Positions 1,036 to 6,152 of a stretch of DNA of 6,691 nt are shown here, piece by piece. Location of the stretch: positions 1 to 6,691 of the forward strand of contig JAGACE010000086.1 in NCBI GenBank assembly GCA_017614275.1. Reading direction: 5' to 3'. The DNA is from Clostridia bacterium. Lineage in GTDB: Bacteria; Bacillota; Clostridia; Oscillospirales; Acutalibacteraceae. The notes below the pieces were generated by a model. That model was not told where the DNA came from. It did not search any database and was given only the letters and a program-made list of their open reading frames with translations. The translations under genes and the position numbers were made by a program. Each line of letters opens with the position of its first letter. The first letter of the stretch is position 1.

Positions 1036-1041
1036 GAGGTG
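1036..1041 (+). promoter_or_regulatory. Ribosome binding site that fixes the FHA-gene start
   Basis: GAGGTG stands 6 nt before the ATG at 1048. A GTG at 1039 is in the same frame and could be read as an earlier start, but it lies inside this ribosome binding site and has no good one of its own. The ATG at 1048 is therefore preferred. Confidence 0.75.
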
Positions 1042-1047
1042 AAGCGA

Positions 1048-1860
1048 ATGTCACTGGAACTCATCACCGCGGTCGGCCGCTGGCTGCTGCCGGTCCTGGC
1101 CGCCCTCATCGTGATCAGCTGCGGCGGCGTCCTCCTCCGGGGCAACCGGAAGACGGGCACCATCGGCTATGTGGTGAACGCTGCCAACGGCGACAGCATG
1201 GCCCTGCGCAGCTTCGAGACATCCATCGGGCGCAGCAAGCTGTGCGACATCGTCCTCAACTACAATACCGTGTCCCGCTTCCACGCGGTCATCGCGCGGC
1301 GCGGCGGCAAATGGATCCTGTTCGACACGAACTCCAAGACCGGCACCTACGTCAACAAGGACCGGGTCGTGGAAAAGAAGTTCCTGGAGAACGGGGACAC
1401 CCTGATCTTCGGCAACGCCATGTTCAAGTTCTACGAGGAACTGCCGGAGGTCATCCCCCAGAACTATCAAAACGCCTACGCGAAACCCGAGCAGAACGAG
1501 CACACGTTCCTGTATGACGACCGCCGGACCCCCGGCGACATCGTCATCCCGCAGATGGTCCGGGAAGCCGGCTGCAACCTGGAGAACTGCATCACGGGAG
1601 AACTCATGGAGATCGACGACATGGACGAGATCCTCATCGGGCGCAGCGAGGAGAGCCACATCCGCATCAATCGCCAGAGCGTCTCCAAATATCACGCGCT
1701 GGTCTCCCGCAACGCCTACGGCCACTGGGTCATCGAAGACCTCGACTCCGTGGCGGGCACGCTGCTCAACGGCGTGGAAGTCAACGAACCCACGCCCCTG
1801 CACGACTCCGACATCATCGAAGTCTGCGGCTACACCATCAAATTCAACGACCCCCGTTGA
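1048..1860 (+). CDS. Membrane-anchored protein with two FHA domains
   Basis: FHA domains bind phosphothreonine peptides. Here they probably recruit or sense a phosphorylated partner at the inner face of the membrane next to the wall-synthesis enzymes encoded downstream. The product is 270 residues: one hydrophobic helix at about 8-30, a basic RGNRK junction, then FHA1 at about 58-130 and FHA2 at about 195-267, joined by a polar linker. FHA1 shows G61-R62, S76-x-x-H79 and TGTYVN (98-103). FHA2 shows G198-R199, S213-x-x-H216 and GTLLNG (237-242). The asparagine usual just before the conserved GT is T98 in FHA1 and A236 in FHA2, so phosphopeptide binding may be altered. It is first in an operon with the SEDS and PBP genes; its stop lies 18 nt before the next start. 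It resembles actinobacterial FhaB-type proteins by domain and context, but orthology is not claimed. Domain call firm, partner unknown. Confidence 0.9.
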   Translation: MSLELITAVGRWLLPVLAALIVISCGGVLLRGNRKTGTIGYVVNAANGDSMALRSFETSIGRSKLCDIVLNYNTVSRFHAVIARRGGKWILFDTNSKTGTYVNKDRVVEKKFLENGDTLIFGNAMFKFYEELPEVIPQNYQNAYAKPEQNEHTFLYDDRRTPGDIVIPQMVREAGCNLENCITGELMEIDDMDEILIGRSEESHIRINRQSVSKYHALVSRNAYGHWVIEDLDSVAGTLLNGVEVNEPTPLHDSDIIEVCGYTIKFNDPR

Positions 1861-1878
1861 CGGAAAGGAGATGACCTT

Positions 1879-3096
1879 ATGAGCGGCCCCCGGTGGATCC
1901 CCTCCCTGCTTCTCATAACCGCGTTCCAGCTGATCTCCTTTGCACAGGTCATCTTTGTGGATGACGGGATCAACACCTTCGCGGCGATCATCCTGGGGAT
2001 CTATCTAGTCATCGAATGGGGCTGGGCGATCACCTCGTCCTTCGTCCTTCGAAAATCCAGCCCGGCGCTGGAATTCCTCGCGTTCTTCCTGACGGGCATC
2101 GGCCTCGCGGTCGTCGCCAGCAAGGGCACGTCCTCGCTGTTCACACAGTTTCTGGCGGTGGTCCTCGGCTTTGCCCTCTACGTGTTCATGCTGTGGATGC
2201 TCGCGAACATCGACCGCGTGGAGAAATTCCACATGCCCATGGAGATCCTGGCCATCGGCCTTCTGGCGATCGGCCTCATCTTCGCGTCGAACAAGAACGG
2301 CGCGTACAACTGGGTCCAGATCGGCGGCTTCTCCTTCCAGCCCTCGGAGATCGTGAAGATCGCCTTCATCTTCGTCGGCGCCGCCACGCTGGAAAAGATC
2401 CAGACCACCAAGCACATCACCCGCTACGCCGTGTTCGCGGTCATCTGCATCGGGCTCCTGTTCCTGATGCGGGACCTCGGCACCGCGCTCATTTTCTTCT
2501 TCACGTTCGTCGTCCTGGGCTTCATGCGCTCGGGCGATGTACGGACCATTTTATTCGTCATCCTGGCTGCCGCCATGGCCGCGGTGCTGGTCGTCCTGGT
2601 CAAGCGGAACTACGTCATGAACCGCTTTGCCACGTACCGGCACATCTGGGACACCCCCTACGGCAACGGCATGCAGCAGACCCGCGTGCTCACCTACTCC
2701 TCCTCCGGAGGCCTGCTGGGCATGGGCATCGGGAAGGGCAAACTGCGCAACGTGTTCGCCGCGGTGGAGGACCTGATCTTCGGCGTCGTCGCCGAGGAGT
2801 GGGGCCTGCTCATCGCCTTCATCGTCGCCCTGTCCTATATCTTCATCTTCGTCCACAGCGTCCGGAATGCCGTGGGCTCCCGCAGCGCGTTCTATTCCAT
2901 CGCCAGCTGCGCCGCAGGCTCGCTCCTGCTCTTCCAGGCAGCCCTGAACATCTTCGGCGTCACCGACCTGCTCCCCATGACCGGCGTCACCCTGCCCTTC
3001 GTGTCCCGCGGCGGTTCCAGTACCATTTCCTGCTGGGGCCTGCTGGCGTTCATCAAGGCAGCGGACAACCGGACCTGGGCCGGGAAAAAGACTTAA
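1879..3096 (+). CDS. RodA/FtsW-type SEDS peptidoglycan glycosyltransferase
   Basis: SEDS proteins polymerise lipid II into glycan strands in the membrane, working with a class B PBP. The 405-residue product is highly hydrophobic with about ten membrane helices. Family motifs in order are NWVQIGGFSFQPSE (144-157, with W145 and P155-S156-E157), RDLGTA (198-203), the loop QQTRVLTYSSSGGLLGMGIG (266-285), VEDLIFGVVAEEWG (296-309) and LPMTGVTLPFVSRGGSS (365-381). D298 matches the essential aspartate of the large extracellular loop (E. coli RodA context TDFIFAVLAEE). The usual QPDLGTA reads MRDLGTA here, so the proline is an arginine. AAGGAG lies at 1865-1870, 8 nt before the ATG. It is preceded by the FHA gene (18-nt gap) and followed by the PBP gene (21-nt gap). 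Whether it serves elongation, division or another process cannot be decided from sequence, so no symbol is given. Confidence 0.95.
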   Translation: MSGPRWIPSLLLITAFQLISFAQVIFVDDGINTFAAIILGIYLVIEWGWAITSSFVLRKSSPALEFLAFFLTGIGLAVVASKGTSSLFTQFLAVVLGFALYVFMLWMLANIDRVEKFHMPMEILAIGLLAIGLIFASNKNGAYNWVQIGGFSFQPSEIVKIAFIFVGAATLEKIQTTKHITRYAVFAVICIGLLFLMRDLGTALIFFFTFVVLGFMRSGDVRTILFVILAAAMAAVLVVLVKRNYVMNRFATYRHIWDTPYGNGMQQTRVLTYSSSGGLLGMGIGKGKLRNVFAAVEDLIFGVVAEEWGLLIAFIVALSYIFIFVHSVRNAVGSRSAFYSIASCAAGSLLLFQAALNIFGVTDLLPMTGVTLPFVSRGGSSTISCWGLLAFIKAADNRTWAGKKT

Positions 3097-3117
3097 AGGG
3101 GGCCGGATTTTCATCGT

Positions 3118-4476
3118 ATGAATCGTATTTTCAAACGCACCAAATGGATGTACTTCCTGGCCATCCTCTTCCTCGTCGGCCTGACCATCCTGGCCATCCT
3201 CTTCGGCACGCACGCCCGCAAGTGGGTCATGCAGCCGTATAACAAGCACATCTACTCCAGCTCCGGTCTGGTCGGCGGCTCCACGCTGTACGACCGCAAC
3301 GGCGATGTGCTGGTGGAAACCGTCGACGGCCAGCGGAAGTACAACAAAAACGCCACCGTCCGCAAGGCCACCCTGCACGTGGTGGGCGACGCGGAGGGGT
3401 ACATCTCCACCGGCGCCCAGACGGCCTTCGCCTCGCAGCTGACCGGCTACGACCTGATCAACGGCCTCTACTCCATGAAGCAGAAGCCCCACGACCTGAC
3501 CCTGACCATCGACGGCGGCCTCTCCGCCACCGCGTACCGGGCCATGACGGAGAAGGGCTATGACAAGGGCTGCGTCGGCGTCTACAACTACAAGACCGGC
3601 GAGATCCTGGCCGCCGTCTCCCTGCCGACCTACGACATCGAGAACAAGCCGGCCATCGACACCAGCAAGGACCGCTGGGACGCCGTCTACATGAACCGGT
3701 TCTTCAAGGGCAAGTACACCCCGGGCTCCACCTTCAAGGTCATCACGTCCGCCTGCGCCCTGGAGAACATCGACAACATCATGAACCAGTCCTTCAACTG
3801 CAACGGCGCCTACACCGTGGTCCGCGGCAGCCAGGTCAAGTGTACGGCCTCCCACGGAAGGCTCTCCTTCCGCTCGGCCCTGAACCACTCCTGCAACTCG
3901 GCCTTCGCCGCCATCGCGTCCGCCCAGCTGACCAACGACCAGCTGACTGCCACCGCGGAAGAGTTCGGGTTCAACGATACGATCGACGTCAACGGCATCG
4001 AATGCGCGAAGTCGTACTTCTCCCTGGAAGACGCCTACGCCATCGACCGCGCCTGGTGCGGCATCGGCCAGTACGAGACCCTCGTCTGCCCCTGCCACGA
4101 GATCGCCATCATGGGCGCCATCGCCAACAAGACCGGATCCACGCCGAACCCCACCCTCATCATGAAGACGGTGAACATCGGCACTTTGAGCTACGTGAGT
4201 TCTGACATCGCCACCCAGCTGGACGACCTGCTTCGGTCCAACGTGACGAACTACTACTCCGACTCCAAGTTCCCGAACCTGAAGATGTGCGGCAAGACCG
4301 GTACCGCCCAGGTCTCCGGCAAAGAGCCCCACACCCTGTTCGCGGGCTACTCCCAGAGAGACGACCTGCCCTTAGCCATCGTCGTCGTCCTCGAGAACTC
4401 CGGCGGCTACGGCCTGACCAACTGCATCCCCATCGCCAACGCAGTCATGCAGGATGCACTGGACCGGTATACTTGA
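3118..4476 (+). CDS. Class B penicillin-binding protein (peptidoglycan transpeptidase)
   Basis: This enzyme would crosslink peptide stems outside the membrane and partner the SEDS polymerase encoded just upstream. It has 452 residues, short for a class B PBP and near the size of mycobacterial PbpA (about 490). There is one N-terminal anchor helix (about 11-30), a small N-terminal domain starting at STLYDRNGDVLVE (55-67), then the transpeptidase domain. Catalytic motifs are complete: S204-T-F-K207 (in PGSTFK), S258-C-N260 and K393-T-G395 (in GKTGTAQ). No PASTA repeats follow. The extracellular part contains eleven cysteines, including C228 and C242 in a probable disulfide pair, which is many for an exported protein. 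The ATG has a weak, distant ribosome site (AAAGGGGG, 3095-3102, 15 nt away; GGAT at 3105-3108 is closer) and no alternative in-frame start upstream, so translation may be coupled to the gene before it. A strong terminator follows the stop. Confidence 0.95.
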   Translation: MNRIFKRTKWMYFLAILFLVGLTILAILFGTHARKWVMQPYNKHIYSSSGLVGGSTLYDRNGDVLVETVDGQRKYNKNATVRKATLHVVGDAEGYISTGAQTAFASQLTGYDLINGLYSMKQKPHDLTLTIDGGLSATAYRAMTEKGYDKGCVGVYNYKTGEILAAVSLPTYDIENKPAIDTSKDRWDAVYMNRFFKGKYTPGSTFKVITSACALENIDNIMNQSFNCNGAYTVVRGSQVKCTASHGRLSFRSALNHSCNSAFAAIASAQLTNDQLTATAEEFGFNDTIDVNGIECAKSYFSLEDAYAIDRAWCGIGQYETLVCPCHEIAIMGAIANKTGSTPNPTLIMKTVNIGTLSYVSSDIATQLDDLLRSNVTNYYSDSKFPNLKMCGKTGTAQVSGKEPHTLFAGYSQRDDLPLAIVVVLENSGGYGLTNCIPIANAVMQDALDRYT

Positions 4477-4517
4477 GCGCAACCCAAATAAATTTCGAAG
4501 AAGCTCGAACCAGACGA

Positions 4518-4563
4518 AGAAAAGCCCCAAATCGCTGTCTTTGGCGATTTGAGGCTTTTTTCT
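4518..4563 (+). terminator. Strong intrinsic terminator of the FHA-RodA-PBP operon
   Basis: The left arm 4520-4535 (AAAAGCCCCAAATCGC) pairs with the right arm 4544-4559 (GCGATTTGAGGCTTTT). There is a single C-A mismatch and an 8-nt loop (4536-4543), and the stem runs into a T-rich tail ending near 4561. The complementary strand also shows a T-rich tail after the stem, so it may act weakly on minus-strand transcripts arriving from the right. Confidence 0.92.
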
Positions 4564-4569
4564 TCTGTC

Positions 4570-4604
4570 ATTTCGTGCGTGCCGGCAGCCACAGGCCACG
4601 AAAT
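4570..4604. repeat. Inverted repeat left of the palindrome array
   Basis: ATTTCGTG (4570-4577) and CACGAAAT (4597-4604) are perfect 8-bp arms with a 19-nt GC-rich interior containing the palindrome TGCCGGCA (4580-4587). It lies between the operon terminator and the array. It could be a further transcription-end structure or the left border of the repeat element. Confidence 0.5.
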
Positions 4605-4614
4605 CCTATGAAAA

Positions 4615-4870
4615 GGCCGTCATTTACGTACCAAACAGCAGAAATACCTGATTTGGTACGTAGTTTTTGCCCGGAAGTGGCCATGGTTTACGTACCAAAT
4701 AGAAGAAATACCCGTTTTGGTACGTAGTTTTTGCCCGGAAGTGGCCATTATTTACGTACCAAATTGAAAAAACTGCGGCTTTGGTACGTAGCCGGCCCCC
4801 AAAAGAGGCCGTTATTTACGTACCAAATGGAAGAAACCGCCGTTTTGGTACGTAATCGTTGCCCGCGAAC
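4615..4870. repeat. Tandem array of four 64-bp palindromic units
   Basis: Units start at a conserved GGCC at 4615, 4679, 4743 and 4807, an exact 64-bp period. Each has a left arm TACGTACCAAA at 4625-4635, 4689-4699, 4753-4763 and 4817-4827. The exactly complementary right arm TTTGGTACGTA is at 4652-4662, 4716-4726, 4780-4790 and 4844-4854. Every loop is 16 nt, variable but with a shared purine-rich GAARAAA-like left half. The 26-nt joins after units 1 and 2 are identical at 24 positions (TTTTTGCCCGGAAGTGGCC core), while the join after unit 3 has diverged. The array sits between the 3' ends of convergent genes, typical of REP/BIME-like palindromes. No transposase is adjacent. Open frames through it shift between units because 64 is not a multiple of 3. 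Function is unknown: structured RNA, protein-binding array or mobile palindrome. Confidence 0.93.
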
Positions 4871-4887
4871 CGTCCGTTCAAGGCAAC
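4858..4887. repeat. Compound hairpin at the right end of the array
   Basis: GTTGCC (4858-4863) pairs with GGCAAC (4882-4887). Inside it, GAAC (4867-4870) pairs with GTTC (4876-4879) around a CGTCC loop. No T-run follows on either strand, so it is not a clear terminator. It overlaps the tail of unit 4 and lies about 28 bp beyond the stop of the Rpn-like gene. Confidence 0.4.
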
Positions 4888-4914
4888 CGCAGTCCTGTTT
4901 CGTGAGTGCGGGAA

Positions 4915-5553
4915 TCAACTTCGGGTTTCGAAGGCGGCGTTATAGAGGATGGTGTGGAATTTTTCCAGGACCGGATCCGGCTGGGCGGGATCGACATTTC
5001 TGGCCCGCCATTCCTCGTCGGTCCGTTCCTCCCACTCGTACTCCAGCCGATAGATCTGCTTTCCCTGACGGCCAAGATCGTAATCCGTCAGATAGATGAC
5101 GTAGACGTCGGGGAACTCTTCCGGGTTTTTTCCCTTGTTCCGGCATGTGGTGTGGATGGTGTCGAGGACAGCGGCGCTCTCCGATGCGTTCACGCCCCTG
5201 CGGTCACAATGAAAGAACGCGAAACACCGGCCCCTGTCGTCTTCCGCATACAGCGCCGGCCTTGCCGGGAATCCCGTGATGGGGCTGCACAGAACCAGGT
5301 CTTTTTCCAGACGGGTGACGTGCAGCGGTTTCCCCTGCGTGTCGTAAAAGTCTTCCTCTTTCAGGACGGTCTCCAGCAACAACTCCATGGATTCTGTTGA
5401 TTCTCCATAGACTTCCCGAAACGGGATCTCCGCCAGCAGGATCAGCTTTCGGAATTCCTCCGTCAGGTCGTCCGGGATGTCTTCCGGCTTCTTCGGGTCC
5501 AGCGGGCGGACCCGTTCGAGCCAGTCTAAAAAAGCCTGGTTGTAATCGATCAT
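4915..5553 (-). CDS. Diverged Rpn-family (PD-(D/E)XK nuclease-like) protein, probably catalytically inactive
   Basis: Active Rpn proteins are DNA endonucleases of the PD-(D/E)XK fold linked to recombination and phage defence. This 212-residue product carries the best-known family signature, PDVYVIYLTDYDLGRQGKQIYRLE (148-171), comparable to the family pattern P-x-x-YVIFITxNDxxxxGxPIYxxE. Upstream, residues 54-64 (ESMELLLETVL) and 99-109 (PALYAEDDRGR) align with the usual LDVYAED-x-x-GR stretch that carries the catalytic aspartate and leads to a catalytic ExQ. Here the aspartate position is A100 and the ExQ position reads within FAFFHC (111-116), so the metal-binding residues seem lost. The end is also shorter than usual. 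The start ATG overlaps the stop of the preceding gene (ATGA, 5550-5553), with GGAGG at 5564-5568. It is last in a three-gene minus-strand operon. Family assignment rests on pattern memory; function is unknown. Confidence 0.68.
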   Translation of the reverse strand: MIDYNQAFLDWLERVRPLDPKKPEDIPDDLTEEFRKLILLAEIPFREVYGESTESMELLLETVLKEEDFYDTQGKPLHVTRLEKDLVLCSPITGFPARPALYAEDDRGRCFAFFHCDRRGVNASESAAVLDTIHTTCRNKGKNPEEFPDVYVIYLTDYDLGRQGKQIYRLEYEWEERTDEEWRARNVDPAQPDPVLEKFHTILYNAAFETRS

Positions 5554-6152
5554 GGCTGCGTGGCCTCCGTTTTCTCTGCGGGGTCCTCGCTTTCCCGGGA
5601 CCCTGCTTTGCCGGTATAGTTCATGATGCTTTCGAGGTTGTCGATGATGAACTGCTGGGCGTGTTCATCGTACCCGTTCTTCTGATACTTCCCCTCCGGG
5701 CCGGTCCGCTCCAGGATCCGGATGCCCAGTTCCTCACCCAGCGCCGTGGGGAGCCGTTTCCGTGAACCGTCTTCCTGTTCTCGGATCTCCAGTGCGCCGA
5801 TGTACTCCAGCCAGCGGGAGATGTTCGTATACCCGACCCGCTGCATGTCATAGGGCAGGACCGCCGTGACGCGATTGGCCAGCGTCTTCACGCCGACCGG
5901 CGTCCGGGTGATCTGGATCGCGTCCCGCTGGATCTGTGTGATCCGGAACGGGCGGACCCGGTCGGGGCGGACGCGATTGAACCCTCCGTTATCCAGATAC
6001 CCCTGCAGCACGTCCGCCGCCAGAGAGAGGCTTTCCAGCAGTTCCGGCGCCTCGATCAAAGGGCCGGTCAAAAGTGTGCGCAGATCGCACATCGCGGTAT
6101 AGACGGCGACTTCTTCAAAGACAAACGTTCCGTTTTCCTGAGTTTGATTCAT
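5550..6152 (-). CDS. Hypothetical protein with a probable winged-helix-like module
   Basis: I do not recognise a named family. The 200-residue product has three visible parts. Residues 8-56 are mostly helical and hydrophobic (FEEVAVYTAMCDLRTLLTG onward). Residues 65-177 look like one compact domain, with TPVGVKTLANRVTAVLP, then YTNISRWLEYIGALEI (108-123), RKRLPTALGEELGI (131-144) and YDEHAQQFIIDNLESI (161-176). The pattern of a helix ending in WLxxxGxL followed by a charged turn, then PTxxGExLGI, resembles a winged-helix DNA-binding module also seen in clostridial hypothetical proteins. DNA binding is an inference. Residues 181-200 are a charged, probably disordered tail. The ATG has AAAGGAAG about 10 nt upstream. 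Its stop overlaps the Rpn-like start (ATGA) and its start lies 21 bp after the WG-repeat gene, so the three are likely co-transcribed and the last two translationally coupled. Confidence 0.78.
   Translation of the reverse strand: MNQTQENGTFVFEEVAVYTAMCDLRTLLTGPLIEAPELLESLSLAADVLQGYLDNGGFNRVRPDRVRPFRITQIQRDAIQITRTPVGVKTLANRVTAVLPYDMQRVGYTNISRWLEYIGALEIREQEDGSRKRLPTALGEELGIRILERTGPEGKYQKNGYDEHAQQFIIDNLESIMNYTGKAGSRESEDPAEKTEATQP

Follow-up and report, generated by a model that had tools for sequence, protein, structure and literature searches.

We begin by considering the window, that is, the whole stretch of 6,691 nucleotides analysed here, which forms one entire contig (C64) of its source genome (G000), a 1.28-Mb draft in 249 contigs that is 78% complete. 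The features around the array are collected in Table 1. Between the 3' ends of two convergent genes, one coding for a penicillin-binding protein (PBP), lie four 38-nt palindromes of the build TACGTACCAAA-N16-TTTGGTACGTA (within 4625-4854), in which all eight arms are identical over 11 nt, the loop is 16 nt in every unit and the units follow each other at 64, 64 and 64 bp, a period not divisible by three. The unit coordinates and the gene ends confirm the four-unit array of identical 11-bp-arm palindromes in a convergent gap that the initial annotation had described. In three mononucleotide shuffles of a 16-kb locus, palindromes of this build with all 11 arm pairs formed are absent, and the RNA fold of the array region lies 5.7 standard deviations below shuffles. 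The gene on the right of the array has 13 database relatives, itself included, none of which carries a Pfam domain. Upstream (1039-4476), the genes for an FHA-domain protein, an FtsW/RodA-type protein and the PBP stand consecutively, as a cell-wall gene cluster.

Table 1. The palindrome array of the window and the features that flank it
Feature	Position	Strand	Remarks
PBP gene	3118..4476	+	transpeptidase domain PF00905; 3' end points at the array
Terminator-like hairpin and T-run	4528..4551	+	after the PBP gene, upstream of and separate from the array
Entire array	4615..4864	none	joins of 26 nt, related to one another, included; the period of 64 makes about six helical turns
Palindrome unit 1	4625..4662	none	11-nt arms, 16-nt loop
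Palindrome unit 2	4689..4726	none	11-nt arms, 16-nt loop
Palindrome unit 3	4753..4790	none	11-nt arms, 16-nt loop
Palindrome unit 4	4817..4854	none	11-nt arms, 16-nt loop
Gene without Pfam match	4915..5553	-	3' end points at the array

It had also been claimed that the loops and the joins vary. The loops do, but the joins turn out to be related to one another (4615-4790 against 4679-4854 gives 82% over 176 bp), so the array of the window grew at least partly by tandem copying. A CRISPR array is rejected from the repeat layout, given variable loops within the units and related joins, and an integron attC array because the 26-nt joins contain no gene.

Arrays in the source genome and in the genus

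Three more arrays accompany that of the window in the source genome, which makes four. The 11-nt arm of the window has 13 matches in this genome, all 13 inside arrays. The window itself accounts for eight of them; contig C132 has four, at its start (period 64), and C196 a single one. When the pattern is relaxed to permit spacers of 14-30 nt, 12 palindromes are obtained and every one is exactly 38 nt long; the same relaxed pattern gives four matches of differing lengths in the seven other genomes of the genus, in each genome at or below the control count. The C196 array has a period of 74 and arms such as TACGGACTAA, and in the C46 array the units are 74, 74, 73, 83 and 95 apart, the last two units having the arms TCCATACATTC and ACCATACATTC. 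Beside the C196 array we observe short tandem repeats of about 21 nt (by eye), together with a 33-nt repeat beginning GACGCGAGTATCAAAAAG (L020:1-75, L020:401-487). In an alignment of the 18 units of the four arrays, for which the structure was supplied rather than inferred and the orientation of the C196 units was chosen by hand, 87% of the arm cells are paired, compared to 22-35% in slid controls, and 25 cells show changes on both sides of the arms, compared to 8.6 in shuffles.

A covariance model built from these 18 units matches seven of the eight genomes of the genus at E <= 1, and five of the seven besides the source have arrays that are built alike but use other arms (CATGCTAAA, CATACAAA, TTAACTGC, CTAGGACC, GTCGATGG). 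Reading the fetched places assigns CATGCTAAA to G007 and G005, CATACAAA to G004 and G001, and TTAACTGC, CTAGGACC and CATACA types to G006. G003 has two weak matches (E 0.23 and 0.94) that are not confirmed as arrays, and G002 has no match at E <= 1. Separately, an isolated palindrome of comparable size, GCATACCT...AGGTATGC, stands on contig C42 of G003 (L086:3400-3790) and is possibly a single unit of another type.

The half-sites are restricted to species. Counted over whole genomes, TTAACTGC units number 115 in G006 and AGTCGATG units eight in G005, each with none in the seven other genomes of the genus; CATACAAA units number 15 in G001, six in G004 and two in G006, with none in the five others. 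Reversed-pattern controls are zero in all three counts.

A de novo detector, run on stretches picked regardless of arrays, finds 17 clusters in 230,537 b of G006, which we count as 12 arrays and which come from 10 of the 20 stretches, and three in G005 (97,333 b). It finds none in 126,487 b of further contigs of the source genome, in 96,759 b of G002, in 44,706 b of G003, in 323,380 b from outside the genus (20 other genera, represented by a stretch each), or in one shuffle of each sample; looser settings give extra clusters in G002, G003, G005 and G006, which we treat as noise. Within the genus the array family is patchy, and this small sample does not show it elsewhere. Searches with exact patterns outside the genus yield nothing convincing either: 11 of 398 family genomes contain a match and only the source genome more than two; a longer exact pattern matches the source genome alone among 98 relatives; the wider collection of genome contigs gives one match, in Aliidiomarina, with a 19-nt loop; in viral contigs the long pattern has no match and a shorter one has two isolated matches; phages match neither the window nor one G006 array; and plasmids do not match the window. 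With three more arrays in the source genome and arrays in five of seven congeners, the dispersal that had been proposed is borne out, and uniqueness to this locus is ruled out.

Conserved half-sites at a near-fixed distance

In G006, 29 TTAACTGC units and 32 CTAGGACC units (five loci for each type) carry about 2 bits per base over some 8-13 nt on each side and mostly less than 0.8 bit elsewhere; pairing is at chance over the seven positions to each side of the unit centre (283 of 1064), and at 0.88-0.97 in the arm core. In 257,493 b of this genome, a sample that includes four loci picked for their matches, the half-sites of the two types are scarce outside arrays, with 2 of 53 for one type and none of 64 for the other. 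Although other lengths were permitted, the unit measures 39 nt in all 50 listed TTAACTGC units (of the 115), 40 nt in all eight AGTCGATG units, and, for CATACAAA, 33 nt in six of six units of G004 and 34 nt in 14 of 15 of G001. The distance between the half-sites of a unit is therefore nearly fixed within each arm type; in the window type it is 31 bp, about three turns. That the palindrome itself is the conserved part, as had been claimed from the window, holds across these data, the half-sites being kept while the loops and joins drift. Because the half-sites are conserved, the unit length is near-fixed and few half-sites occur outside arrays, the pattern is, judged by sequence, the apparent signature of a pair of sequences recognised at a set distance.

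G006 also has a composite element of about five palindromes with spacings of 50, 63, 74 and 50 (L096:368-640, L102:6080-6352, L104:2756-2975). Its arms vary between the loci in concert (GCTGCAT or ACCGCAT), and its joins look similar by eye.

Helical phasing of the units

The unit-to-unit distances cluster at 63-64, 73-75, 83-84, 95 and 115 bp. Without any cleaning, 32 collapsed spacings give V = 0.72 at 10.5 bp, a value reached by none of 5,000 uniform draws. The hand-cleaned set of 28 distances in 15 genome-and-type sets, some of them dependent by shared descent (e.g., the three-unit elements of G001 and G004), has its best phase-zero period at 10.50 bp with V = 0.84, which none of 100,000 random draws attains; 25 of the 28 deviate from a multiple by no more than 1.5 bp, where 8 are expected. 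With a single value for each type (15 values), V rises to 0.92. Among the listed TTAACTGC units, the neighbour is 63 or 64 away in 30 of 37 cases and 126-128, 188 or 191 away in the remainder. The spacings out of phase are 50 bp in two G006 sets, the main exception, and 65.5 bp in G001.

In the cleaning, near-equal values were merged by hand, and the following were dropped: the 32-bp periods of the source genome, which are half-periods, the motif being nearly self-complementary; short values of 23.5-44.5, which come from mispaired half-sites or degenerate units; one value of 169; and the degenerate CATACA-type clusters of 107 and 113.5 bp (L087, L106). The values of 83 and 95 on C46 were taken from unit positions, those of 50 and 61.5 were kept, and the 65.5 of G001 was included. 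An apparent spacing of 69 bp was discarded, as it resolves into 74 plus 64.

Location, neighbours and turnover

We survey the location of 37 hand-curated arrays with codon-usage gene models. Of the 19 in gaps with both neighbours called, 13 are between convergent genes, 6 between tandem genes and none between divergent genes; among the other gaps longer than 150 bp, 15 of 98 are convergent (Fisher p = 7e-6, an optimistic value, since one gap holds two of the arrays and some are related by descent). Two arrays are overlapped by a reading frame. The remaining 16 are at the end of the DNA examined, in many cases a contig end (L019:8, L020:132, L074, L092, L098, L103:26 and others), and 13 of the 16 face the 3' end of a gene. 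The resemblance to REP/BIME elements in position, noted at first for the window alone, extends in this way to the arrays at large, which lie at gene 3' ends. So many arrays at contig ends suggest that the repeats break short-read assemblies and are hence undercounted. A Pfam scan of 20 neighbouring genes finds no transposase; these neighbours are mostly ordinary and unrelated genes, three without a match and one, beside L094, coding for a WYL-domain protein.

The arrays come and go. Downstream of the PBP orthologues in six genomes of the genus (61-83% identity) no array is found, one of these loci (L172) holding a single two-member cluster; G001 has only distant PBP paralogues. Since six orthologous loci are without it, the copy in the window is not needed at its place. 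In G003 and G006, the PBP gene is followed by a homologue (39% and 35% identity) of the next-but-one gene of the window, at 5550-6152.

In G007, elements of 400-540 bp, made of arrays and G+C-rich flanks, recur at several loci with 80-85% identity. Long G+C-rich modules common to several loci, e.g. GGGGCAAACAACAGGCCAAAGGGG, flank arrays in G001, G004, G005 and G007 (seen at L073, L074, L075, L076, L078, L080, L081, L083 and L084), so that a larger dispersed element may exist, with the array as its core.

One array stands in a coding frame. On contig C15 of G005, four of the eight AGTCGATG units (L166:12514-12808) repeat with a period of 84 bp, that is, 28 codons or eight helical turns, in a frame of 1000 codons (L166:10971-13973) that we take from its sequence to be dnaX; the other four units are intergenic, on C5. 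The dnaX-like gene has relatives in all eight genomes of the genus, and the fetched pieces of these orthologues, several of them broken at contig ends there, contain no such array.

Discussion

The next question is whether the arrays are read as RNA or as double-stranded DNA. Like any palindrome, the array of the window has a good fold both in RNA and in single-stranded DNA. Under selection for pairing in RNA, one would expect more tolerance of G-T pairs than of A-C mismatches. In 1,487 stem cells, 1,329 of them Watson-Crick, we count 39 G-T and 47 A-C, in a test weakened by the arrays not being sorted by transcribed strand; since G-T does not exceed A-C, RNA pairing is not favoured. An Rfam search gives no match in the window or at the arrays of 19 further loci, its only matches over 20 sources being two tRNAs and one SAM riboswitch. 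A terminator scan of 4400-5000 reports the hairpin at 4528-4551 alone (such hairpins average 1.1 per shuffle) and none of the four palindromes, and an intrinsic terminator is rejected. The position at gene 3' ends, the strong predicted fold and the compensatory changes in the arms would all suit transcribed RNA hairpins at mRNA 3' ends, be they terminator, stabiliser or small-RNA array. The near-fixed loop length and the whole-turn spacing do not, and together with the mismatch counts they lead us to regard this reading, the transcribed hairpin array of the initial annotation, as quite unlikely. Double-stranded DNA read by a putative protein is the better account, given the lack of a G-T excess, the near-fixed loop length and the whole-turn spacing.

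Among known systems of short repeated sites, the DNA uptake sequences of Neisseria and Haemophilus are species-specific words of 9-12 nt, often in inverted pairs at gene ends, whereas the half-sites here are scarce outside arrays. Phased arrays of Lrp-like or NrdR-like regulators have sites whole turns apart on one face of the DNA and bind cooperatively, mainly at promoters; the present arrays, in contrast, are dispersed over gene 3' ends, with a half-site that differs from one species to another. A description of such arrays was not found in the open-access literature, where the exact arm letters lead to other subjects.

The comparison with REP/BIME elements goes further. As described in excerpts of PMC3733652 and PMC8266576, these palindromes measure about 20-40 bp and occur in many copies, arrayed, species-specific and of several types per genome; they lie between convergent or tandem genes, downstream of coding regions, and sometimes inside replication and repair genes (the last also in PMC3733652), and the present arrays share all of this. 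They are likewise intergenic, downstream of genes and in high copy number in G006 (115 units), with four arrays only in the source genome. The same excerpts define REPs by a GTAG or CGTC tag, and the GTAG types also by the RAYT transposase (PMC3733652, PMC8266576). Here, a conserved unpaired tag is absent: the flanks vary between units and hold little information in the G006 types, and although GTAG stands at the 3' foot of 8 of the 18 aligned units of the source genome, its GTA is paired arm and its G is not conserved. Unlike REP/BIME elements, the arrays also have loops of 16-23 nt, no G-T excess in the stems and whole-turn spacing. The search for a RAYT-type transposase, a check proposed with the initial annotation, comes back empty for the source genome, as Y1/RAYT (PF01797) is absent from seven of the eight genomes of the genus, including G000 (78% complete) and G006 (99%), and from five of the six that bear arrays; it is found in G007 only. 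Its absence excludes the GTAG types only, since CGTC-type REPs are without a dedicated transposase, according to the excerpt of PMC3733652. As tag and RAYT are both lacking, we do not file the arrays as REP/BIME, though they are REP/BIME-like in place and spread. Rickettsia palindromic elements, found in frame inside genes (cited in the excerpt of PMC3733652), have in-gene palindromes in common with the present family, which consists mostly of intergenic helix-phased arrays with one coding case (G005, L166). PMC12306157 lists a few Bacillota genomes and mentions neither tandem, RAYT nor convergent.

Combining these observations, we lean slightly towards the view that the arrays are a docking platform, on one face of the helix and at gene 3' ends, for a putative sequence-specific DNA-binding protein. 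Among the options first offered for the window, a regulator or nucleoid binding array fits best, as the half-sites are conserved and in helical phase; the binding itself is a prediction. There are points against it: differing arms within one genus, with several types per genome, would need several or fast-changing proteins, the 50- and 65.5-bp spacings are out of phase, and the arrays come and go. The arrays could instead be selfish, non-autonomous REP-like palindromes that have no host role and whose half-sites are recognised only by a copying enzyme. Dispersal, species restriction, the elements that recur at several loci of G007, the one array in a coding frame and the absence of the window array from six orthologous loci all agree with such mobility, which could also hold together with docking. 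However, five of six array bearers lack Y1/RAYT, no transposase is found among the 20 neighbours, and neutral copies are not expected to keep whole-turn spacing; taken as a full explanation, we judge it rather unlikely. The perfect arms could also be a mutational by-product, if template switching at hairpins uses one arm as the model for its partner and for the units next to it, and the near-perfect match of arms within arrays and the concerted arm changes (by eye) at L096, L102 and L104 are of the kind that it would leave. Local switching, though, cannot give identical half-sites at unlinked loci with unrelated loops and leaves the whole-turn spacing unexplained, which makes this origin very improbable.

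In the docking model, each palindrome would bind a dimer through its two half-sites (31 bp or about three turns apart in the window type), and dimers on units in phase would cooperate in binding and would wrap or bridge the DNA. Placed between convergent genes, such a complex may act as a barrier to transcription or supercoiling, by analogy with the roles proposed for REP/BIME elements, for which the excerpt of PMC3733652 lists supercoiling and termination as hypotheses. Since the half-sites are not the same from species to species, the protein would be expected to differ between species too, or to co-evolve. New units probably arise by tandem copying, and whole arrays would also move by some mechanism. 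A bolder proposal, possible in our view but doubtful, is that the genus has a docking system of its own with no known counterpart, in which helix-phased inverted half-sites, fast-changing DNA-binding proteins, nucleoprotein barriers between convergent genes and species-specific half-site dialects belong together.

If the docking model is right, there can be REP-like repeats in genomes that lack a RAYT transposase, kept in order by the spacing that the DNA helix sets, which points to a protein reader, and the role of BIME-like arrays between convergent genes becomes directly testable. The species-specific half-sites would then exemplify how DNA-binding proteins and their scattered sites can co-evolve fast.
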